Origin: Haloglomus litoreum
Lineage (GTDB): Archaea > Halobacteriota > Halobacteria > Halobacteriales > Haloarculaceae
NCBI RefSeq assembly: GCF_029338515.1
Contig: NZ_CP119988.1
Coordinates: 744,001-808,000, forward strand
Direction of reading: 5' to 3'
DNA length: 64,000 nucleotides
Positions 10,990 through 21,734 of the stretch are shown in pieces (position 1 is the stretch's first letter; every line of letters starts with the position of its first letter). A program made the position numbers and the translations under genes. The notes beneath the pieces were generated by a model, which made no database searches, was not told the DNA's origin, and worked only from the letters and a program-made list of their open reading frames with translations.

Positions 10990-11151
10990 ACGCGAGTGAG
11001 TCCGTGCGGACGTATACGCGTTCCGTGTCGCCGTCTGGGGGGTTCCGTGTGTCCCGGAGGCACGGTCCCGACCGGCTCGATGGCCGCCCGACCGGCCGCG
11101 TGGCGGTCGCTCCGCACGAACGATTATGCGACACCCGGCCGACGCGCCGGT

Positions 11152-11547
11152 ATGACCGACGACCTGCCGGCCGACGGCTCGGCGCCACGGGCCGCCGACG
11201 AACCGACCGACCGCGAGGTCGCGTGCTTCGAGGCGGGCGTGAAGTTCGGGTCGCTGTACCACCAGTTCGCCGGGACGCCGCTCTCGCCGGACAGCGCCGA
11301 CGCGCTGGCGACCGCGATGGAGCGGAGCATCGAGAACCAGCCACACTGCGAGGACGTGGCCGTCGAGATGCGGGACGAGGAACTGGCCGACGCCCTCGCG
11401 GAGGGGAGCGCCGACTACACGGAGTGGACCGGCCGGTTCTCCGAGGTCCGGATGCGTATCGAGTACGAGAACGTGGTCGTCCACACGGGGATGGCGATGG
11501 ACGAGGGCTACCCGCTGATGCAGGTCGAGTCCGTCGAGGAGGACTGA
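11152..11547 (+). CDS. mptD: archaeal dihydroneopterin aldolase (MptD) family protein
   Basis: A 131-residue protein resembling archaeal MptD (PF04038), which cleaves 7,8-dihydroneopterin in pterin/methanopterin-type biosynthesis. The family block FEAGVKFGSLYHQFAGTP (about residues 24-41) and RIEYENVVVHTGMAMDEGYPLM near the C-terminus are visible. In haloarchaea it would feed folate synthesis; that role is inferred. The first 20 residues are acidic and low-complexity. Transcribed alone, stop abutting the convergent small acidic gene. Confidence 0.82.
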   Translation: MTDDLPADGSAPRAADEPTDREVACFEAGVKFGSLYHQFAGTPLSPDSADALATAMERSIENQPHCEDVAVEMRDEELADALAEGSADYTEWTGRFSEVRMRIEYENVVVHTGMAMDEGYPLMQVESVEED

Positions 11548-11808
11548 CTACCTGTCGCCGTCCGTGTCGTCGCCCTCCGCGTCGTTGCTCTCCGTCTCGT
11601 CCCCCTCCCTGTCATCGCCCTCCGCGTCGGTCTCCGTATCGTCGTCACGTTCCTCGGAGACGTACTCCCAGACCTCGGCACAGCCACTCCCATCGGGCAG
11701 GTCGTCGAGGTGTGCGGTGTCGTCGTCCCCCTCGGTTGCGTCCGCGCCGTCCCCGTCGGGACGGGGGGTGTCGACGGGCATCGGCCCGGATTCATCGTCG
11801 GCTCCCAT
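11548..11808 (-). CDS. small acidic protein, unknown function
   Basis: An 86-residue protein, strongly Asp/Glu-rich, with a low-complexity tail (DDTETDAEGDDREGDETESN). The middle block LDDLPDGSGCAEVWEYVSE looks like the only folded or conserved part. No signal or membrane segment. The ATG at 11808 is chosen because residues upstream of it in the open frame are basic and unlike halophilic coding sequence. It is convergent with and adjacent to mptD. Confidence 0.6.
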   Translation of the reverse strand: MGADDESGPMPVDTPRPDGDGADATEGDDDTAHLDDLPDGSGCAEVWEYVSEERDDDTETDAEGDDREGDETESNDAEGDDTDGDR

Positions 11809-11924
11809 CGGTACTGTCCGGCGTTGGGACGGGACGGGGATAAACTCGCGCCGGGCGCGGCCCCTCCGGCGCGTCGACGGGTGTCCCGTGGTCCCACACC
11901 TGATGGGGGCGAGCGTCACGAAAG

Positions 11925-11932
11925 GGTTTAGT
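11925..11932 (+). promoter_or_regulatory. TATA box ahead of the arg leader ORF
   Basis: GGTTTAGT centred 31 bases before the ATG at 11960. The transcript should begin at or within a few bases of that ATG, so the short leader ORF, not argG, would be the first translated unit. Confidence 0.5.
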
Positions 11933-11959
11933 AGAGTCCTGCTCCCACGTTCATCCACG

Positions 11960-12049
11960 ATGACGACGGAGTCCCACGCGCTGTCGGCTCCCTCGCCCAG
12001 CCACGGGTTCCGTCACCTCGCCCCCCGACGACCGCGACGGGCCCTCTAG
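11960..12049 (+). CDS. putative 29-residue arginine-rich leader peptide of the arg operon
   Basis: Predicted peptide of 29 residues whose last 12 are RHLAPRRPRRAL, with five arginines (one CGT, three CGA, one CGG). The promoter spacing upstream suggests leaderless transcription from this ATG, and argG starts 115 bases after the stop. The stop codon lies inside the loop of a GC stem at 12038-12054. The layout is that of a leader peptide for arginine-responsive attenuation, but no expression or conservation evidence is available. The peptide could also be chance, because Arg/Pro-rich short frames are frequent in GC-rich DNA. Confidence 0.4.
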   Translation: MTTESHALSAPSPSHGFRHLAPRRPRRAL

Positions 12050-12054
12050 GCCCG
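12038..12054 (+). promoter_or_regulatory. stem-loop at the leader ORF stop codon
   Basis: CGGGCC (12038-12043) pairs with GGCCCG (12049-12054) around loop CTCTA; the leader stop TAG is at 12047-12049. It is followed by a pyrimidine-rich tract (CCTCTTCTCACTTCCCCC). Ribosome occupancy at the Arg codons would control whether the stem can form. Confidence 0.4.
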
Positions 12055-12164
12055 CCTCTTCTCACTTCCCCCGACGACCGTCCCGCTCCCTGGCCGCGCC
12101 ACTCGCTCGTGACGCGGCGGGGGATATCGAACGACCCATCACACATCACACGCACCACACATCC

Positions 12165-13394
12165 ATGACACACGAGAAGGTCGCGCTCGCGTTCTCTGGC
12201 GGGCTCGACACCACCGTCTGCGTCCCGCTGCTGGAGGAGGAGTACGGCTACGACGAGGTCATCGGCGTCACCGTCGACGTCGGCCAGCCGAGCGAGGAGT
12301 TCGACGAGGCCCACGAGACCGCCGAGGCGCTCGGGCTCGAACACTACGTCGTCGACGCACAGGAGGAGTTCGCCGACCTCTGTATGGACGCGGTCCGCGC
12401 GAACGCCACCTACCAGGGCTACCCCCTGGGGACGGCGCTCGCGCGCCCGGTCATCGCGAAGGCCATCCTCGCGGTCGCCGAGGAGAACGACTGCACCGGC
12501 ATCGCCCACGGCTGTACCGGGAAGGGGAACGACCAGCTCCGGTTCGAGGCCGTCTGGCGCGACTCCGACCTCGAGGTCATCGCGCCCGTGCGCGAACTCG
12601 GCCTGACCCGCGAGTGGGAGCAGGAGTACGCCGCCGAGCGCGACCTGCCCGTCGAGGGCGGCGACGGCGGCGCCTACTCCATCGACACGAACCTGTGGAG
12701 CCGTTCGGTCGAGGGCAGCGAACTGGAGGAGCCGAGCCACGTCCCCAGCGAGGACATCTACGCCTGGACCTCGGCACCCGGCAGCGAGACGCAGGAGCTC
12801 ACCATCGAGTTCGAGGACGGCTACCCCGTCGCGCTCGACGGCGAGGAACTCGATTCCGTCACGCTCATCGAGACGCTGAACGACCTCGCCGGCGACTACG
12901 GCGTCGGCCGTACCGACGTGATGGAGGACCGCATGCTGGGCCTGAAGGTGCGCGAGAACTACGAGCACCCGGCCGCCACCACCCTCCTGAACGCCCACGA
13001 GGCCCTGGAGTCGCTCGTCCTCACGCAGGAGGAGCGCCAGTTCAAGAACTACATCGACCAGGAGTGGGCCGAGAAGGGGTACCAGGGCCTCGTCGACGCG
13101 CCGCTCGTCCGCGCGCTGGAGGGGTTCATCGACGAGACCCAGGAGCGCGTCACCGGCAGCGTCACCATCCGGCTCGAGGGTGGGCAGGCGCGCCCGGTCG
13201 GGCGCGAGAGCCCGTACGCCGTCTACTCCGCGGAGGCGGCCTCGTTCAACACCGAGGACGTCATCGGCGGCATCGAGCAGAACGACGCCACCGGCGTCGC
13301 GAAGTACCACGGCTTCCAGCAGCGCCTCTCGAACAAGGTGACCGAGGCCGCCAACGAGGGCCGCACGGACTGGGGCGGCGACGACGCCGAGTGA
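12165..13394 (+). CDS. argG: argininosuccinate synthase
   Basis: Joins citrulline and aspartate using ATP, the penultimate step of arginine synthesis, in the cytoplasm. Length 409 is normal. The N-terminal PP-loop AFSGGLDTTVC (residues 9-19), the AHGCTGKGNDQLRFE block (near 110) and IDTNLWSRSVEG (near 170) are all intact. argH follows after a single base, so the two are co-transcribed. A second weak TATA-like GGATATCG lies near 12122-12129, so argG might also be expressed without the leader. Confidence 0.97.
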   Translation: MTHEKVALAFSGGLDTTVCVPLLEEEYGYDEVIGVTVDVGQPSEEFDEAHETAEALGLEHYVVDAQEEFADLCMDAVRANATYQGYPLGTALARPVIAKAILAVAEENDCTGIAHGCTGKGNDQLRFEAVWRDSDLEVIAPVRELGLTREWEQEYAAERDLPVEGGDGGAYSIDTNLWSRSVEGSELEEPSHVPSEDIYAWTSAPGSETQELTIEFEDGYPVALDGEELDSVTLIETLNDLAGDYGVGRTDVMEDRMLGLKVRENYEHPAATTLLNAHEALESLVLTQEERQFKNYIDQEWAEKGYQGLVDAPLVRALEGFIDETQERVTGSVTIRLEGGQARPVGRESPYAVYSAEAASFNTEDVIGGIEQNDATGVAKYHGFQQRLSNKVTEAANEGRTDWGGDDAE

Positions 13395-13395
13395 G

Positions 13396-14961
13396 ATGAC
13401 CGGGCGCGAGCACGAGGCCACGGACGCGGGCGCGCCCCCGAACGGGGGCACCGACGAGGTCGCCACCGACGGGAGCGGCGAAAGCGACAGCGCCGGTGAC
13501 GGCGACGTCGTCCGTCGCGAGCGGTTCAGCGGCGGCCCCGCCCGCGAGTTCCTCTCCTCGCTCGCGCAGGACGAGCGCATCTTCGCGGCCGACCTCGCCG
13601 TGGACCGCGCGCACACCGTGATGCTCGCCGAGCAGGGCATCATCGGGGACGACGAGGCCGGCGAGATCCTCGGCGCGCTCGACGATGTCGAGGCGGCGGG
13701 CCACGCCGCGCTCGACGGTGGCGAGGACGTCCACGCGGCCATCGAGACGGCCGTCATCGAGCGTATCGGCCCCGTCGGCGGGAAGATGCACACCGCGCGC
13801 TCGCGCAACGACGAGGTCGCGACGTGCATCCGGTACCGCCTCCGCGCGGACCTGCTCGACACCGTCGATGCCGTGCTCGCCGCGCGTGACGTGTTGCTGG
13901 GGACGATGGCCGCGGAGCGCGAGACCCTCGCGCCCGGCTACACGCATCTCCAGCCCGCACAGCCGACGACCGTCGCGCACTGGCTGGGCTCCTACGAGGG
14001 CGCGCTGGCCCGCGATACGGGTCGGCTGTTCGACGCGTTCGACCGCACCAACCGCTCGCCGCTGGGTGGCGCCGCCTTCGGCGGCACCCCGTTCGACATC
14101 GACCGCGAGCGCACGGCGGCCCTGCTAGGGTTCGACGGCCTCGTCGAGAACAGCATGGATGCCTCGTCCGCGCGGGACTTCCTGCTGGAGGCCACGAGCG
14201 CGCTCGCGACGCTCGCGACGCACTGCTCGGGGCTGGCCGAGGACCTCGTCCTGTTCGCCAATCGCGGGTTCGTGGAACTGGACGACGACTACGCCTCCAC
14301 GTCGTCGATCATGCCCCAGAAGAAGAACCCGGACACGCTGGAACTCGTCCGGGCGGTCGCGGGCGACGCGGCGGGCGACCTGCAGGCCGTGCTGACGAGT
14401 CTGAAGGGGCTCCCCCGGGCGTACAACCGCGACCTCCAACGCGTCCACCCGCACGCGTTCGACGCAGCGGACGCCGTGCTCGACGCCGTCGAGGTCACGG
14501 CGGGCGCGGTCGCCACGGCCGACTGGAACGAGGCTGCGCTGGCCGAGGCGGCCGACGAGGGCTTCTCGACGGCCACGGGCGTCGCGGACCTGCTGGCGAT
14601 GGCCGGGGTGCCGTTCCGGACCGCGCACGAACTCGTGGCGCGGGCCGCGGAGGCGGGCGACGACAGGTCGGCGCTACGGGCCGACGAACGATACGAGGCC
14701 GTCACGGCGGCTGCCGAGGACGTGCTGGACGCGCCCCTCGCGGAGTACGTCGACCCCGAGGAGGTGCGCCGAGCACTGGACCCGGTCGAGAGCGTGGCGA
14801 TGCGCGACTCGCGCGGCGGGCCCGCACCCGAGGCGATGGCGGCACACCACGAGCGCGCGACGGACGCCCGCTCGGCCGACCAGGAGGCGCTGGCGGCTCG
14901 CCGCGAGGGACTGACCGAGGCGGCCGACCGCCTCGCTACCGAGGTGGACCGCCATGTCTGA
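13396..14961 (+). CDS. argH: argininosuccinate lyase
   Basis: Splits argininosuccinate into arginine and fumarate. 521 residues, fumarase/aspartase superfamily, with the signature SSIMPQKKNPD at about 297-307, HTARSRNDEV near 131 and THLQPAQPTTVAHW near 176. The first 40 residues are an acidic Gly/Asp-rich extension that lacks family similarity. The start is 1 base after the argG stop. About 180 bases of non-coding DNA with a separate promoter follow before lysW. Confidence 0.97.
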   Translation: MTGREHEATDAGAPPNGGTDEVATDGSGESDSAGDGDVVRRERFSGGPAREFLSSLAQDERIFAADLAVDRAHTVMLAEQGIIGDDEAGEILGALDDVEAAGHAALDGGEDVHAAIETAVIERIGPVGGKMHTARSRNDEVATCIRYRLRADLLDTVDAVLAARDVLLGTMAAERETLAPGYTHLQPAQPTTVAHWLGSYEGALARDTGRLFDAFDRTNRSPLGGAAFGGTPFDIDRERTAALLGFDGLVENSMDASSARDFLLEATSALATLATHCSGLAEDLVLFANRGFVELDDDYASTSSIMPQKKNPDTLELVRAVAGDAAGDLQAVLTSLKGLPRAYNRDLQRVHPHAFDAADAVLDAVEVTAGAVATADWNEAALAEAADEGFSTATGVADLLAMAGVPFRTAHELVARAAEAGDDRSALRADERYEAVTAAAEDVLDAPLAEYVDPEEVRRALDPVESVAMRDSRGGPAPEAMAAHHERATDARSADQEALAARREGLTEAADRLATEVDRHV

Positions 14962-15090
14962 GCGACCGGCCCCGGTAGCCCGGCCGCCCGCACCCCCCCG
15001 ACGACCATTGACAGGTATCTGATACCGGCTCCCCAAGTTCGGTTCTGGGCGCCCTGAATGCCGTTAGCCGACGGTGCGATTCTACCAGTT

Positions 15091-15116
15091 GTTCGACAGG
15101 TTCGACAGCCTTAAGT
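15091..15116 (+). promoter_or_regulatory. lysW promoter with tandem 9-bp repeat
   Basis: GTTCGACAG occurs twice back to back at 15091-15099 and 15100-15108, directly followed by a TATA-like CCTTAAGT (15109-15116) centred 31 bases before the lysW ATG. This is a second promoter for the lysW-argXC segment, and the tandem repeat at the BRE position is a candidate operator. Confidence 0.55.
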
Positions 15117-15142
15117 TGCCGAAGCGGCCACGTAGGGGTACA

Positions 15143-15307
15143 ATGGTAGACTGTCCCGAGTGCGGGGCCGACGTGGACCTGCACGACGACCTCGAGGTCG
15201 GAGAGATCGTCGACTGCGCGACCTGCGGTGCCGAGCTCGAAGTGGTCGGTGACGACCCCGTCGAGCTGGACACGGCACCCGAACTCGAGGAGGACTGGGG
15301 GGAGTAA
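15143..15307 (+). CDS. lysW: LysW-type amino-group carrier protein
   Basis: A 54-residue zinc-ribbon carrier: CPECG and CATCG pairs at residues 4-8 and 25-29, then the invariant C-terminal EDWGE, whose terminal glutamate carries the substrate by isopeptide bond. It protects the alpha-amino group of glutamate (or alpha-aminoadipate) through the following steps. The ATG at 15143 fits the promoter spacing. Its place directly before argX, argC, argB, argD, argE and argF indicates arginine rather than lysine synthesis here. Confidence 0.96.
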   Translation: MVDCPECGADVDLHDDLEVGEIVDCATCGAELEVVGDDPVELDTAPELEEDWGE

Positions 15308-15451
15308 GATGCCCGTGCCCGGCGTGGTTCGTGCCACACTGCTCGCGGCTCCGCCGCTCGCAAGGGGCGGCGGTGCCGCCCCGCAGACCCGGCGCGAGCA
15401 CGCCGGGCGACCGGCGCCCCCCACCTCGGCGGCCACCGGAGGTGCCCGCTG

Positions 15452-16321
15452 ATGCAGGTCGGCATGCTGTACTCGCGCATCAGGCGCGACGAGAAGCTCC
15501 TCCTCTCGGAGCTGCGCGACCGCGACCACGAGGTCACGAAGATCGACGTCCGCAAGGAGCACTTCGACGTCCACGAGACGCCCGAGGCGTTCGAGGGGCT
15601 CGACCTCGTCCTCGACCGGTGTCTCGCGACCAGCCGGTCGCGCTACGCCACGGATTTCGTGGCCCACTACGACGTGCCCGTCGTCAACGACCCGCGGACG
15701 GCGGCCATCTGCGCCGACAAGGCCCGGAACAGCCTCGTCCTCGCCGACGCGGGCGTCCCGACGCCGCGTACGACGGTCGCGTTCACGAAGGAGTCCGCGA
15801 TGGAGGCCATCGAGGAGTTCGGCTACCCCTGCGTCCTGAAGCCTGTCGTGGGCAGCTGGGGTCGACTGATGGCGAAGATCGACTCCCGGAACGCCGCCGA
15901 GGCCATCCTGGAGCACAAGGAGACGCTCGGCCACTACGAGCACAAGGTGTTCTACATCCAGGAGTTCGTCGAGAAGCCGGGCCGTGACATCCGCGTCCTG
16001 GCGACGGACGGCGAGCCGGTCGCCGCGATGGCGCGCGCCTCGGACCACTGGCTCACCAACGCCGCGAAGGGCGCCACCACCGAGGCCATCGAGGTGACCG
16101 ACGAGATGCGCGACCTCGTCGAGCGCGCCTCCGACGCCGTCGGCGGCGGCCTCCTCGGCGTCGACCTCATGGAGACGGGCGACGAGTTCACCGTCCACGA
16201 GGTCAACCACACGGTCGAGTTCAAGGCGCTGAACGAGGTGGCCGACGTGGACGTGCCCGGCACGGTCGTCGACTGGCTCGAGGGGAAGGCCGACACCGAG
16301 GCCGCGGAGGTCACGACATGA
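15452..16321 (+). CDS. argX: glutamate--LysW ligase (ArgX/LysX family)
   Basis: A 289-residue ATP-grasp ligase that attaches the alpha-amino group of glutamate to the C-terminal Glu of LysW. Visible blocks: PRTTVAFTKESAMEAIEEFGYPCVLKPVVGSWGRLM (ATP grip, spanning roughly 108-140) and EFTVHEVNHTVEFKALNEV near 250-268. The EFK in that last block resembles LysX (alpha-aminoadipate) enzymes more than classical ArgX, so a dual or shifted specificity is possible; the operon context favours glutamate. A spacer of 144 bases precedes it. It overlaps argC by 4 bases. Confidence 0.92.
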   Translation: MQVGMLYSRIRRDEKLLLSELRDRDHEVTKIDVRKEHFDVHETPEAFEGLDLVLDRCLATSRSRYATDFVAHYDVPVVNDPRTAAICADKARNSLVLADAGVPTPRTTVAFTKESAMEAIEEFGYPCVLKPVVGSWGRLMAKIDSRNAAEAILEHKETLGHYEHKVFYIQEFVEKPGRDIRVLATDGEPVAAMARASDHWLTNAAKGATTEAIEVTDEMRDLVERASDAVGGGLLGVDLMETGDEFTVHEVNHTVEFKALNEVADVDVPGTVVDWLEGKADTEAAEVTT

Positions 16322-17355
16322 CCACCACTGCCAGCGTGGTCGGCGGCACCGGCTTCACGGGTGGCGAACTGCTGCGCCTGCTCGACGGCCACCCCGAGTT
16401 CGAGGTCGTGCAGGCGACCTCCCGCTCGGAGGCGAACAAGACCGTCGGCGGCATCCACCCGAACCTGCGTCACATGGACCTGCGGTTCTCCGACCCGGCG
16501 GACCTCGAATCCGTGGACACGCTGTTCGCGTGTACGCCCCACGGCGTCTCGATGGGCCAGATCGACGAGTTCCGCGACGCCGCCGGCACGGTCGTCGACC
16601 TCTCGGCGGACTTCCGTCTGCCCGAGACGACGTACTACGACGAGTACTACGACGGCCACGAGCGACCCGGGCTGCTCGAGGAGGCCGAGTACGCCCTGCC
16701 CGAGTTGAACCGCGAGAACCTGCCGGGCGCCGACCTCATCGCCGCCGGAGGCTGCAACGCCACCGCCAGCATCCTCGGCCTGCTCCCGCTGTTCGAGGCG
16801 GGCATCCTCGACGGCGACGAGCAGATCGTCATCGACATCAAGGTCGGCTCCAGCGAGGGGGGCGCCGGCGGCGGTGCCGCGTCGTCGCACGCCGAGCGCT
16901 CGGGCGTCGTCCGCCCGTACGCGCCGACCGGCCATCGCCACGAGGCCGAGATCGAGGCGTACCTCGGCACGAGCGTCTCGTTCACGGTCCACGCCGTCGA
17001 CATGATCCGCGGCGCGAGCGCGACCTGTCACATCTTCCCGAACGGGCCCGTCTCGAAGGGCGATATGTGGCAGGCCTACCGCGGCCAGTACGAGGACGAG
17101 CCGTTCGTCCGCATGGCGTCGGGCGGCGGTGGCGTGTATCGGTATCCGGAGCCGAAGGCGGTCGCGGGCTCGAACTTCGCGGAGGTCGGCTTCGAGGTCG
17201 ACCCCACGAACAAGCGCCTCGTCGTCTTCTCGGCCATCGACAACATGATGAAGGGCTCGGCGGGCCAGGCGGTCCACGCGGCGAACATCGCGCTGGGCTT
17301 CGAGGAGACCGCCGGGCTGGAGCACACGGGCTTCCACCCCATCGGCGCGCCCTGA
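16318..17355 (+). CDS. argC: LysW-gamma-glutamyl-phosphate reductase
   Basis: A 345-residue NADPH-dependent reductase converting LysW-bound glutamyl phosphate to the semialdehyde. The Rossmann start TASVVGGTGFTGGELLRLL (residues 3-21) and the catalytic Cys block AAGGCNATASILGLLP (near 141) are intact, with HRHEAEIE near 204. It starts within the argX stop (ATGA overlap). The operon is interrupted after it by about 345 bases of repeat DNA before argB. Confidence 0.95.
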   Translation: MTTTASVVGGTGFTGGELLRLLDGHPEFEVVQATSRSEANKTVGGIHPNLRHMDLRFSDPADLESVDTLFACTPHGVSMGQIDEFRDAAGTVVDLSADFRLPETTYYDEYYDGHERPGLLEEAEYALPELNRENLPGADLIAAGGCNATASILGLLPLFEAGILDGDEQIVIDIKVGSSEGGAGGGAASSHAERSGVVRPYAPTGHRHEAEIEAYLGTSVSFTVHAVDMIRGASATCHIFPNGPVSKGDMWQAYRGQYEDEPFVRMASGGGGVYRYPEPKAVAGSNFAEVGFEVDPTNKRLVVFSAIDNMMKGSAGQAVHAANIALGFEETAGLEHTGFHPIGAP

Positions 17356-17701
17356 GCATAGAAGCAGCGAATCAGCGAAATTTTTCGATAATGATGCATA
17401 TAAACGACGCAAGTCAGATGTTTTCGATGAAAGAGCAGATTAAAAGCTGTAGGAAGCCCCGGGCGGCTCGACCCTCCGGGGCTCGCTGCGCGCTTCCCTC
17501 GCGCCTCGCAGAGCGAGGCGCTCGGTCCAGTGCTTGCGTCGTCCTCAGAATCGAAGATTCTGATGGGCTGCGGGAGAGCCCTGCTCTCCCGAACGCCCGG
17601 GAGGGGTCGAGCCCCCCGCCCCTTCCATTCCCGCCCGTTCCGGGAGGTCGGTCGAGCGACGCCCCCGCCAGCGCGGTGCGTACTCGTGGAGGTGCGGCAG
17701 C
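17356..17701. repeat. repeat module (copy B) inserted between argC and argB
   Basis: The first about 90 bases are AT-rich (AATTTTTCGATAATGATGCA region). The rest is GC-rich and hairpin-laden: TCAGAATC/GATTCTGA (17545-17552 with 17556-17563) and CGGGAGAGC/GCTCTCCCG (17571-17579 with 17583-17591), both perfect. The flanks (GTAGGAAGCCCC, GTGCTTGCGTCG, CCGCCCCTTCCATTCCCGCC) resemble those of copies near 39.7 and 54.7 kb. No gene is evident. It separates genes that elsewhere in this operon overlap or nearly touch. Confidence 0.6.
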
Positions 17702-18556
17702 ATGAGCGATATCTCCGACTACGACCGCGTCGTCGTGAAGATCGGCGGCGCGAAGGCCGTCGAGCCGGAGGGCGCGCTGGCGGACATCGCCGATCTGGTC
17801 GACGAGGGCGTCGAGATGGCCGTCGTCCACGGCGGCTCGACGGCGGTCGACGACACGTTAGAGCGGATGGGGATGGAGCCCGAGTACGTCGAGACGCCGG
17901 GCGGCGTCGTCGGTCGGTTCACCGACGAGGAGACGATGGACGTGTTCAAGATGGCGATGGCCGGGCTGGTGAACACCGACCTCGTGACGGGCCTGCGCAA
18001 CGCGGGCGCAGACGCCGTCGGCCTCTCCGGGGTGGACGGTGGCCTCCTCACGGGCTCCCGGAAGGACGCGGTGCGGGTCGTCGAGGACGGGAAGAAGAAG
18101 ATCCGCCGCGGCGACCACTCGGGCACCATCAAGCAGATCAACGCCGACCTGCTGGAGTCGCTGCTCGCCGATGGGTACACCCCGGTCGCCTCGCCGCCGA
18201 TGCTGGCCGACGACGGGGTGGCGGTGAACACGGACGCCGACCGCGCGAGCGCGGCGGTGGCGGGCGCGCTGGGCGCGACGCTCGTCTCGCTGACCGACGT
18301 CGAGGGCGTCTACCGGGACCCCGACGACCCGTCGACCCGTATCGAGCGCGTCGAGACCGCCGACGACTTCGCGGCACTCGAGTCGGCGGCCGAGGGGTTC
18401 ATGAGCCGGAAGGTGATGGCCGCGACGGAGGCGCTGGAGGGCGGCGCGCCCGAGGTCGTCGTCGCCTCCGCGAACGCCGACCGGCCGGTCCGGACGGCGC
18501 TGGAGGGTGGCGGTACGCACGTCCTGCAGTCGGCCCTGCCGGAGGGGGACGAGTGA
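17702..18556 (+). CDS. argB: LysW-glutamate kinase (acetylglutamate kinase family)
   Basis: Phosphorylates the gamma-carboxyl of LysW-bound glutamate. 284 residues, amino-acid-kinase fold: VVKIGGAKAVEPEG at 11-24, AVVHGGSTAVDDTLERMG near 40-57, and the ATP-side block NTDADRASAAVAGALGATLVSLTDVEGVYRDP near 177-209. It is the first gene after the repeat module; about 60 bases separate it from argD. Confidence 0.95.
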   Translation: MSDISDYDRVVVKIGGAKAVEPEGALADIADLVDEGVEMAVVHGGSTAVDDTLERMGMEPEYVETPGGVVGRFTDEETMDVFKMAMAGLVNTDLVTGLRNAGADAVGLSGVDGGLLTGSRKDAVRVVEDGKKKIRRGDHSGTIKQINADLLESLLADGYTPVASPPMLADDGVAVNTDADRASAAVAGALGATLVSLTDVEGVYRDPDDPSTRIERVETADDFAALESAAEGFMSRKVMAATEALEGGAPEVVVASANADRPVRTALEGGGTHVLQSALPEGDE

Positions 18557-18614
18557 CGATGCAGCACTGGCACGGACCGACAGGTTCGATAGCGCAGGAC
18601 CGCACAGCGTACGC

Positions 18615-19742
18615 ATGACCGGATTCGTCTTCTCCGAGAAGCCCATCCGCATCGAACGCGGTGAGGGCGTCCACCTCTACGACACGAACGGGACCGAGTA
18701 CCTCGATTTCGGCGCCAGCTACGCCTGTACGCCGGTCGGCCACTGCCACCCCGAGGTGGTCGACGCGGCGACGAGCCAGCTGGAGCGGCTCATGTACGTC
18801 CAGGCCTCCTACCCGAACGACGCCCGCGACGCGCTGTACGGCGCACTCGCGGACTGTGCGCCCGGGGACATCGACCGGGTATGGCTCTGTAACTCCGGGA
18901 CGGAGGCCAACGAGGCCGCGCTGAAGTTCGCCCGGCACGCCACCGGCCGCTCGAAGATCGTCGCCACGACGCGGGGCTTCCACGGCCGCACGATGGGGGC
19001 GCTCTCGGCGACCTGGAAGGACGAGTACCGGGAGGGCTTCGAGCCGCTGGCCGGCGGCTTCGAGTTCGTCGAGTACGGCGACGCCGACGCGATGGCCGCG
19101 GCGGTCGACGACGAGACTGCGGCGGTCATCCTCGAACCGCTCCAGGGCGAGGGCGGCATCAACCCCGCCGACACCGACTACCTGCAGGCCGTCCGCGAGA
19201 CGACCGCCGACCACGGGGCCGCGATGATACTGGACGAGATCCAGACGGGACTCGGCCGCACGGGCCACCTGTGGGCCAGCGAGCGCCACGATGTCGTTCC
19301 GGACGTCCTGACGACGGCGAAGGGGCTCGGCAGCGGCCTCCCGGTCGGCGCGACCCTGGTGAAGGAGTGGGTGGCCGAGGACTGCGGCAACCACGGCTCG
19401 ACGTTCTCCGGTGGCCCGGTCGTCTCGGCCGCCGCCGGCGCCACGCTGGACGTGCTCCAGCGCGAGGATCTCCCCGCACACGCCGGAGAGATGGGTGACT
19501 ACCTGATGGGCGAGGTTCGGGACCTGCTCGGCGACGAGGTCCGCGACGTGCGCGGCCACGGGCTGATGATCGGTGTCGAGGTGAAGCGGGGGGCCAACCG
19601 CCTGCTGCGCGACCTCGCCATCGAGCACGGGATCCTCGCACTGCCCGCGGGCCGGACAGTCCTGCGCCTGCTCCCGCCGCTCACCATCGAGCGCGAGCAC
19701 GCCGACGAGGTCGTCGACGCGCTGGAGGCGGTCATCGCGTGA
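18615..19742 (+). CDS. argD: LysW-glutamate-semialdehyde (ornithine-type) aminotransferase
   Basis: A 375-residue class-III PLP aminotransferase that converts LysW-bound glutamate semialdehyde to LysW-ornithine. The PLP-phosphate block CNSGTEANEAALKFAR is near 95-110, GFHGRTMGALSAT near 125, the Asp of ILDEIQTGLGRTG near 208-220 and the Schiff-base Lys in LTTAKGLGSGLPVG near 232-245. The ATG at 18615 gives the usual N-terminus (MTGFVFSEKPIRIERG). The stop overlaps the GTG of argE. Confidence 0.95.
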   Translation: MTGFVFSEKPIRIERGEGVHLYDTNGTEYLDFGASYACTPVGHCHPEVVDAATSQLERLMYVQASYPNDARDALYGALADCAPGDIDRVWLCNSGTEANEAALKFARHATGRSKIVATTRGFHGRTMGALSATWKDEYREGFEPLAGGFEFVEYGDADAMAAAVDDETAAVILEPLQGEGGINPADTDYLQAVRETTADHGAAMILDEIQTGLGRTGHLWASERHDVVPDVLTTAKGLGSGLPVGATLVKEWVAEDCGNHGSTFSGGPVVSAAAGATLDVLQREDLPAHAGEMGDYLMGEVRDLLGDEVRDVRGHGLMIGVEVKRGANRLLRDLAIEHGILALPAGRTVLRLLPPLTIEREHADEVVDALEAVIA

Positions 19743-20830
19743 GCGACGCCGCCGAGGCACCGGCCGACAGCCAGGTTCCCGTCGACCAGGAGGCCCGCGA
19801 CCTGCTCGAGCGCGTGGTCGCCACGCCCTCGCCGTCCGGCGAGGAGGGGGCCGCGGCCGCTGAACTCGTCGAGTTCTTCGAGTCCCACGGGCGGGAGGCC
19901 TGGACCGACGCGGTCGGCAACGTCCGCGCGCCCGCCGACGACTCGCTCCTGCTCACCTCGCACGTCGACACCGTCCCCGGCGACATCCCGGTCCGTGTCG
20001 AGGAACACGACGACGGGAGCGACGTGCTGTGGGGCCGCGGCAGCGTCGACGCGAAGGGGCCGCTGTGTGCGATGGCCGTCGTCGCGGTCCGCACGGGCGT
20101 CTCGTTCGCCGGCGTCGTCGGCGAGGAGGTCGACTCCCGGGGCGCCCACCACCTCGTGGCCGAGCGCGACGCGCCCGACGCCGTCGTGAACGGCGAACCA
20201 TCCGGCTGGGACGGCATCACGCTGGGCTACCGCGGGCTCACGGCCGGCCGGTACGTCCACACCTCGGAGTCGGGTCACACCTCCCGCGAGGAGGCAAACG
20301 CCATCCAGTCGGCCATCCGCTGGTGGGCTCGGGTGGAGGACCGCTACGAGACCGACGAGTACGAGCCGGTCTTCGAGCAGGTGACGACCAAGCCGGTCGC
20401 GATGGACGGCGGCCTCACCGAGGACGGCCTCTCGGTGGAGGCGACGATGGACGTCCAGCTGCGCGTCCCGCCCGCGCTGACGGTCGACGACGTACAGGAG
20501 ACCGTCGTCTCCGAGCTCGCGGGCGGGACCGTCAACTGGTACGACGAGGTGCCGCCGGTGATGGTCTCGCCCCGTACCGAGGTGGCGCGGGCGTTCCGCG
20601 TCGCCATCCGCGACGTGGGCGGTGACCCCCGCCTGCTCCGCAAGACCGGCACCAGCGACATGAACGTCTTCGCCGGCGCCTGGGACTGCCCGATGGCGAC
20701 CTACGGCCCCGGCGATTCCGACCTGGACCACGCGCCGAACGAGCACCTGCCGCTTCGCGACCTCGACCGCGCCGTCGCGGTGCTCGAGCGCGTCGCGAGC
20801 GACTTCACCGAGGACGAGAACGATGACTGA
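19739..20830 (+). CDS. argE: [LysW]-ornithine hydrolase (M20 family)
   Basis: A 363-residue M20-type metallohydrolase that releases ornithine from LysW. Metal-ligand blocks: LLTSHVDTVPG (near 72-82), WGRGSVDAKGPLCAM (near 99-113), GVVGEEVDSRGA (near 123-134), and a final His region DHAPNEHLPL (near 331). It starts at GTG overlapping argD (GTGA) and overlaps argF by 8 bases. The order fits the LysK/ArgE of LysW-type clusters. Confidence 0.94.
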   Translation: MSDAAEAPADSQVPVDQEARDLLERVVATPSPSGEEGAAAAELVEFFESHGREAWTDAVGNVRAPADDSLLLTSHVDTVPGDIPVRVEEHDDGSDVLWGRGSVDAKGPLCAMAVVAVRTGVSFAGVVGEEVDSRGAHHLVAERDAPDAVVNGEPSGWDGITLGYRGLTAGRYVHTSESGHTSREEANAIQSAIRWWARVEDRYETDEYEPVFEQVTTKPVAMDGGLTEDGLSVEATMDVQLRVPPALTVDDVQETVVSELAGGTVNWYDEVPPVMVSPRTEVARAFRVAIRDVGGDPRLLRKTGTSDMNVFAGAWDCPMATYGPGDSDLDHAPNEHLPLRDLDRAVAVLERVASDFTEDENDD

Positions 20831-21734
20831 CGACCACCCACGCAACTTCGTCGACATCGACGACCTGACGACCGAGGAACTGCACGCGGTCCTGACCCGC
20901 GCGACCGACCTGAAGGAGCGCGAGCACCGGGGGAAACACCACCCGCTGCTCTCGGGCCAGACCCTCGGGATGATCTTCGAGAAACCCTCCACCCGGACCC
21001 GCGTCTCCTTCGAGACCGGGATGACCCAGCTCGGCGGCCACGCCATCTTCCTCGGCCCGGACGACATCCACCTCGGCCACGGCGAGCCCGTCAAGGACAC
21101 CGCCCGGGCACTGTCCCGGTACGTGGACCTGTTGATGGCCCGCGTCTTCGACCACGCCGACGTGCAGGAACTCGCCGAGTACGCCACCGTTCCGGTCATC
21201 AACGGCCTGACCGACGACGCCCACCCCTGCCAGACGCTGGCCGACCTGCTGACCATCCGTGAGCGGTTCGGGGACTTCGAGGCCGACGTGGCGTGGGTCG
21301 GCGACGGCAACAACGTCGCGCAGTCGTTCGTTCTGGGGGCGGCGATGGTCGACCTCGACCTGACCGTCGCCACGCCGCCCGAGTACGCCATCGACGACGC
21401 GGTGCTGGACCGCGCGGCCGAACTCGGGACGCCGCCCGAGACCACGACCGACCCCGAGGCCGCGGTCGAGGGCGCCGACATCGTCTACACGGACGTCTGG
21501 GTCAGCATGGGCGAGGAGGACCAGCGTGCCGAGAAACTGGAGCGGTTCCAGCGCGGCGGCTTCCAGGTCGACGACGACCTGCTCGGCCCGGATACCGAGG
21601 TGATGCACTGCCTTCCGGCCCACCGCGGCGAGGAGATCACCGACGAGGTGATGGAGTCCGACCGGGCCCTGGTGTGGGATCAGGCCGAGAACCGGCTCCA
21701 CGCCCAGAAGGGGCTGATGACCTGGCTGGACTGA
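20823..21734 (+). CDS. argF: ornithine carbamoyltransferase
   Basis: Makes citrulline from ornithine and carbamoyl phosphate. 303 residues. The carbamoyl-phosphate motif FEKPSTRTRVSFE is at about 54-66, HPCQTLADLLT near 134-144 and the ornithine loop HCLPAHRGEE near 262-271; all catalytic residues are present. It closes the arg gene block. The overlap with argE implies translational coupling. Confidence 0.97.
   Translation: MTDDHPRNFVDIDDLTTEELHAVLTRATDLKEREHRGKHHPLLSGQTLGMIFEKPSTRTRVSFETGMTQLGGHAIFLGPDDIHLGHGEPVKDTARALSRYVDLLMARVFDHADVQELAEYATVPVINGLTDDAHPCQTLADLLTIRERFGDFEADVAWVGDGNNVAQSFVLGAAMVDLDLTVATPPEYAIDDAVLDRAAELGTPPETTTDPEAAVEGADIVYTDVWVSMGEEDQRAEKLERFQRGGFQVDDDLLGPDTEVMHCLPAHRGEEITDEVMESDRALVWDQAENRLHAQKGLMTWLD

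Follow-up and report, generated by a model that had tools for sequence, protein, structure and literature searches.

A conserved arginine-codon leader ORF and GC hairpin ahead of argG in haloarchaea: a probable ribosome-sensing leader peptide

The window analysed here is a 64-kb stretch of a Haloglomus genome (Halobacteriales), whose closest named relative in the argG search was Haloglomus halophilum, with 97% ArgG identity. The window contained an arginine biosynthetic operon in the order argG-argH-argW-argX-argC-argB-argD-argE-argF, representing the full LysW-type arginine pathway (12165..21734), and a short ORF with a hairpin lay directly ahead of it. The features of the locus were as follows.

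11927..11934, + strand: TATA-like box TTTAGTAG, assigned from sequence as the leader promoter
11960..12049, + strand: arg leader peptide ORF of 29 aa, MTTESHALSAPSPSHGFRHLAPRRPRRAL followed by the stop (from sequence; the uORF is kept in 144 distinct argG upstream regions)
12026..12040, + strand: Arg sensor codons CGA CGA CCG CGA CGG (from sequence and the CGA bias among relatives)
12038..12054, + strand: GC hairpin CGGGCC-CTCTA-GGCCCG (from sequence and compensatory variants in relatives)
12055..12072, + strand: G-poor, pyrimidine-rich tract 3' of the hairpin (from sequence; G is also low in relatives)
12085..12124, + strand: predicted further stem-loop GCCGCG...CGCGGC, situated in Haloglomus between the leader and argG, role unassigned
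12165..13394, + strand: argG, argininosuccinate synthase, first gene of the operon (profiles NF010392 and TIGR00032)
13396-14961, + strand: argH
15143-15307, + strand: lysW/argW (named from sequence only, no profile)
15452-16321, + strand: argX
16318-17355, + strand: argC
17702-18556, + strand: argB
about 18615-19742, + strand: argD
19739-20830, + strand: argE
20823-21734, + strand: argF-like OTCase (named from sequence only, no profile)

The five Arg codons of the leader ORF were CGT, CGA, CGA, CGA, and CGG. The hairpin was formed by the arms CGGGCC (12038-12043) and GGCCCG (12049-12054) with the loop CTCTA (12044-12048), and the leader stop codon TAG (12047-12049) began in the loop and ended on the first base of the 3' arm. 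The ATG of argG at 12165 lay 115 nt past this stop. An earlier note on this DNA had described a leaderless 29-codon ORF at 11960 with five Arg codons, three of them CGA, a stop in the loop of the GC stem, a pyrimidine tract behind the stem, and argG 115 bases further on; all of these were borne out, with the stop straddling the loop and the 3' arm and the leaderless state being a prediction from the position of the TATA box. The box and the ATG named in that note also stood, but the spacing of 31 between them did not, since the distance from the first T of TTTAGTAG to the ATG was 33 nt. Transcription is predicted, in the absence of transcript data, to start at or adjoining this ATG. Neither strand of the window held a second TATA-anchored short ORF of this class. 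The second stem-loop (12085..12124) did not align to other genera, and the Rfam search of the leader region returned no match. The folding energy of the leader in the window was unremarkable against shuffled sequences (z of -1.07 and -0.43), so that the hairpin was not unusually stable and its stability was not used as evidence; the evidence for the leader is comparative, not thermodynamic.

Comparison among haloarchaea showed that the leader was broadly conserved, as the earlier note would have required, and made the case stronger than that note had supposed. The argG sample, drawn from 138 of the 146 genomes of the family and 80 named records, gave 146 distinct upstream regions, and the core of Arg codons and GC hairpin was present in 144 of them. 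The order of the module was a TATA box, about 31 nt, a start codon, 18-72 variable codons, an in-frame Arg run, a GC hairpin of 4-6 bp holding the stop, and a G-poor tract. Among the 16 GTDB families in which argG was read, the module was found in 13 (f1, f3, f4, f5, f6, f7, f10, f12, f13, f14, f15, f16, and f17) and was absent from the three basal families f2, f9, and f11. The strict test, which demanded at least four Arg in the last 12 aa and a hairpin of at least five GC pairs at the stop, was passed by 82 of the 144 real argG upstream regions and by none of 2880 order-1 Markov random sequences. The 144 sequences share ancestry, and these counts are not independent events. The covariance model of the core gave one strong match per genome, at argG, and its matches elsewhere in the genomes were only weak and at noise level. 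Both regions lacking the module belonged to second copies of argG, which served as a natural control. The arg leader is thus a real, conserved, and specific element. These two second copies (L059 and L077) were found in genomes G011 and G019 of one genus, which is Haloarcula as judged by L168, and had a different gene neighbourhood.

The signs of translation were observed in the reading frame and in the choice of codons. A TATA box with an ATG 29-35 nt downstream could be fixed mechanically in 118 regions; the spacing range held in 118/118, and all 118 of the ORFs anchored in this way remained open as far as the hairpin even though the distance from ATG to hairpin spanned 58-140 nt. In 111/118, CGN codons were densest in the ATG frame. 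In the full set, the uORF reached the hairpin in 144/144 and carried at least three Arg in its last 10 codons in 139/144. Across the relatives, CGA accounted for 346 of the 595 Arg codons (58%) in the sensor stretch, compared with 2.5% in argG of named relatives. The codon changes in close pairs (70, 82, and 106 at positions 1, 2, and 3, a third-position excess; 128 changed codons nonsynonymous and 65 synonymous) give no more than a mild coding signal and show no constraint on the N-terminal peptide. The Arg run was retained while the N-terminal peptide varied, and a free N-terminus together with kept sensor codons is the pattern that would be expected of a leader peptide.

The hairpin at the end of the leader ORF was supported by covariation. 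Most stems were GGGCC/GGCCC, the stop being placed within the loop or on its border; the stop lay inside the hairpin in 123/144. Within the ungapped set of 67 sequences, a double change at one pair was observed in four sequences, and the wider set contained the compensatory arm variants GGCCC/GGGCC, GGGGC/GCCCC, GGGGTC/GACCCC, and ACCCC/GGGGT. The 25 nt past the hairpin contained on average 11% G across relatives (compared with 35% in the window) and 69% pyrimidine. No U-tract intrinsic terminator was present after the hairpin, the longest T run within 50 nt being mostly 2-3 and rarely more than 3; a scan for a sigma-70 promoter and a U-tract terminator was likewise empty, which is unsurprising for an archaeon. 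A universal antiterminator formed by the Arg codons and sequence further downstream was also considered and was unsupported overall (mean z of -0.6, with p<=0.05 in 16%); such pairing was significant in some clades only.

An independent second case was observed upstream of ilvB, where the layout was that of the arg leader but the hairpin and the cognate peptide differed. The leader was found in 29 of 32 ilvB loci (L234-L243 and L266-L285 among them), with Ile, Val, and Leu codons at its end and the stop in a GGGGC/GCCCC hairpin. One of these leaders was located as follows.

G000:C1, about 3352467-3352562: ilvB leader L242, ahead of ilvB at 3352804

The ilvB leader of this genome, MTRRVAVGRTPQTSDATVRRLLAILGIVGAA, ended in LLAILGIVGAA before the stop, and the tails of the set included IIVGA and, elsewhere, TIIVGAV, ELIIVGV, and SIRIVGAL, each followed by the stop. 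As with CGA at argG, a rare codon was preferred: in the last nine codons of the ilvB leaders, Val was encoded by GTA in 36 of 53 cases (GTC in 13, GTG in 4) and Ile by ATT in 36 of 49, whereas GTA made up 2.4% and ATT 6.6% in argG. In both leaders the cognate codons directly preceded the 5' arm of the hairpin or, for GTA in ilvB, sat inside it.

The module was specific to these two operons in the sequences searched. A scan by architecture only, which required a TATA-ATG short ORF, at least five GC pairs at the stop, and a G-poor tract and ignored amino-acid content, covered about 2.0 of the 4.7 Mb of the Haloglomus genome and returned exactly two matches, the argG and ilvB leaders (two in 1.6 Mb, none in 0.4 Mb). 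The scanned 2.0 Mb had been picked to include argG and ilvB, and the thresholds were derived from known examples, so that the scan gives a background rate and is not a discovery. None of the 76 upstream regions of trpC, trpD, hisG, thrC, hom, and two types of leuA carried the module.

Taken on these grounds, the element very probably belongs to the ribosome-sensing leader peptides. Its probable role, proposed here without expression data, is that of a cis-acting leader peptide that gauges charged arginyl-tRNA through ribosome stalling and switches the argG-H-W-X-C-B-D-E-F operon, most likely by transcription attenuation. RNA polymerase would start at or beside the ATG at 11960, and a ribosome would load directly onto the leaderless 5' end, the translation of the leader being inferred. 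With abundant Arg-tRNA, above all the species that reads CGA, the ribosome would pass the Arg codons, reach the stop in the hairpin loop, and depart, whereupon the GC hairpin would form and shut off expression into argG; the most probable means is premature transcription termination within the G-poor tract, perhaps via FttA/aCPSF1. When arginine is short, the ribosome would stall on the Arg codons beside the 5' arm, the hairpin would be blocked, and the operon would be transcribed. The stalling, the response to cognate tRNA charging, and the direction of that response are inferred; because the cognate codons lie at or in the 5' arm, a stalled ribosome must block the hairpin, and a departed one lets it form. 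The ilvB operon would use the same device with Ile, Val, and Leu codons.

Transcription attenuation as the exact output is less certain than the class assignment; it is the best-supported output and has not been demonstrated. Since neither a U-tract terminator nor a general antiterminator was found, the output step rests on inference. FttA is the likely cause of polarity in archaea (PMC12548453), and the action of FttA at the arg leader is a guess. Alternatively, the leader ribosome and the hairpin could control the initiation of argG, by unmasking of the start site or by reinitiation, with no effect on transcript length. The lack of a U-tract terminator would suit such translational control, as would the 5'UTR of Haloarculaceae, which is long, with structure that extends to the argG start and, in part of the family, a covarying pseudoknot there. 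Three lines of evidence favoured an output at the level of transcription instead. The distance from hairpin to argG spanned 71-193 nt, and no downstream partner was conserved; in H. volcanii, termination-reinitiation depends on overlaps or very small spacings, and a gap of about 20 nt all but eliminates it (PMC10666635); and the module persisted in clades with a promoter between it and argG, in which a proximal TATA belonging to argG itself lies about 30 nt ahead of the ATG (48/144, in Natrialbaceae- and Haloferacales-type genomes). We therefore regard control of argG initiation as unlikely, although it retains some chance of being correct. In the genomes with a proximal argG TATA, some transcripts are inferred from that TATA, with no transcript data, to bypass the leader.

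Leader-peptide attenuation is a textbook bacterial mechanism that needs the ribosome and RNA polymerase in step. Like the bacterial trp, his, leu, and ilv attenuators, the haloarchaeal leader is a short ORF directly before a biosynthetic operon, with a run of cognate codons near its end, its stop at a GC hairpin, and a peptide otherwise free to vary; two operons, argG and ilvB, each have their own cognate codons. Unlike them, it is archaeal, leaderless, and placed behind a TATA promoter, and only one hairpin is conserved, with its loop holding the stop; a U-tract terminator is lacking, and no antiterminator is conserved in general. The criteria for a bacterial attenuator are thus not fully met: the ORF with its promoter, the codon run, and the covarying hairpin meet them, and the U-tract does not. 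The attenuation logic that the earlier note had read into this layout is accordingly supported by the conservation and by the ilvB case, while the output step remains unproven without a U-tract terminator and with a pairing confined to some clades. It appears likely that these leaders form a haloarchaeal class of their own, namely ribosome-stalling leader peptides whose ORFs end inside a GC hairpin and lack a U-tract, and which sense charged tRNA for Arg (argG) and for branched-chain amino acids (ilvB).

The peptide itself might instead sense free arginine and arrest the ribosome when arginine is high, as in the fungal arginine attenuator peptide (AAP). The AAP, encoded by the arg-2/CPA1 uORF, is a conserved peptide that senses free arginine, and the haloarchaeal leader resembles it in being a uORF before an arginine-biosynthetic gene, for which an arginine-responsive regulation is proposed here. 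The Arg-rich C-terminus beside the stop was indeed the best-conserved part of the leader peptides, with the tails RPGR in 58/144 and RPGL in 20/144. Everything but the Arg run was free, however, and the Pro, Gly, and Ala residues and the last residue varied with the hairpin sequence, so that conservation of the peptide beyond the Arg residues, as in AAP, was not met; in the haloarchaeal leader it was the codons that were conserved. The strong bias to one rare synonymous codon pointed to tRNA rather than to the peptide, and the ilvB leader had the same architecture with an unrelated peptide. Sensing by the nascent peptide is therefore very doubtful.

It is still more improbable that the ORF is a stand-alone gene for a small protein or small RNA with argG merely as its neighbour. 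In the genomes with a proximal argG TATA, the leader might form a transcription unit by itself, but it was always directly upstream of argG and in a single copy per genome, its N-terminal peptide was not conserved, and no separate argG TATA was found in 96/144. A DNA operator, in which the palindrome GGGCCNNNNGGCCC would bind an arginine-responsive repressor or roadblock with the ORF being incidental, is hardly credible: the palindrome was nearly invariant in most sequences (67/67 at three of five pairs), but the frame and Arg codons were kept despite varying distances, the arms changed in compensation to quite different sequences, the ilvB palindrome differed and had its own cognate codons, and transcription is predicted to start about 80 nt upstream of the site.

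To our knowledge, leader-peptide attenuation has been known only from bacteria and not from Archaea; no description of it in haloarchaea or other archaea was found in Rfam or in the literature searched, and subscription literature lay largely outside that search. If the preferred reading, leader-peptide attenuation driven by charged tRNA, is true, this would be the first such case described in Archaea as far as we know and a read-out of archaeal transcription-translation coupling, and archaea would use the same logic as bacteria, probably separately evolved, without the bacterial terminator. Because the arg leader occurred in almost all haloarchaea examined and a branched-chain version preceded their ilvB genes, these archaea probably sense amino-acid shortage via a stalled ribosome. 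One codon run and one hairpin would provide a simple genetic handle on how translation controls archaeal transcription termination, and the presence of the arg module in Haloferax species makes it testable in a tractable model genus; among the close relatives of H. volcanii, H. prahovense, H. denitrificans, and H. marisrubri (loci L173, L177, and L171) have the leader MATRST...VRPRRRAL before the stop.

Other conserved elements were observed around argG. Upstream of the proximal argG TATA by 40-60 nt, an operator-like element was conserved in Natrialbaceae (GGTTAGCA..CGCTCTA-N4-TAATTT) and another in Haloferax (GTGCCTATAGGCATCTCTAC..TTAATTT), as seen in L103-L148 and L155-L177; judged by their sequence alone and with no binding data, these are probably the binding site of a regulator of the second argG promoter. 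Just ahead of the argG start, many Haloarculaceae had a covarying H-type pseudoknot (CCGCCC/GGGCGG with GTCGGGT/ACCCGAC, and the variants CCGTCC/GGACGG with GCTGGGT/ACCCGGC), which was found at loci including L082-L088, L046, L050, L063, L176, and L043 and was absent in Haloglomus. A pseudoknot score of at least 34 was reached in 26% compared with 1% of random sequences.

The nearest catalogued haloarchaeal relative of these leaders was the leuA-Halobacteria RNA (Rfam RF03001), which is likewise a candidate cis-regulatory RNA of haloarchaea located ahead of a gene for amino-acid biosynthesis, of the leuA type, and is present at a leuA locus in this genome. Unlike the arg and ilvB leaders, it has another sequence and structure (53 positions). 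Its covariance model had no match at argG (11000-13500, E<=1) or ilvB and matched only at leuA loci, and the architecture scan found no leader module at the RF03001 leuA locus. RF03001 preceded the second leuA-type gene (L288, L287, L293, and L305; the G000:C1:3777351 region), where it overlapped a leaderless ATG ORF, MSDSDNPEDRGSRREAAGCEIRGLF followed by a stop, that was out of frame with leuA; it is possible that RF03001 itself belongs to a translated leader. A different feature was observed in the leuA paralogue beside ilvB (L303 at G000:C1:3351163-3352278, L301, L304, L296-L300, L294, and L302), which in 10/10 genomes lacked an in-frame ATG start close to the conserved N-terminus, although a distant one was present in two of them. 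A leaderless ATG opened the frame one base off, as in MTGNTEGSSTESAGRVLPGHA followed by a stop, across the conserved CGAGTTCTTCCAGGGCACGCT, which suggests that a conserved programmed +1 frameshift may be required to make LeuA.
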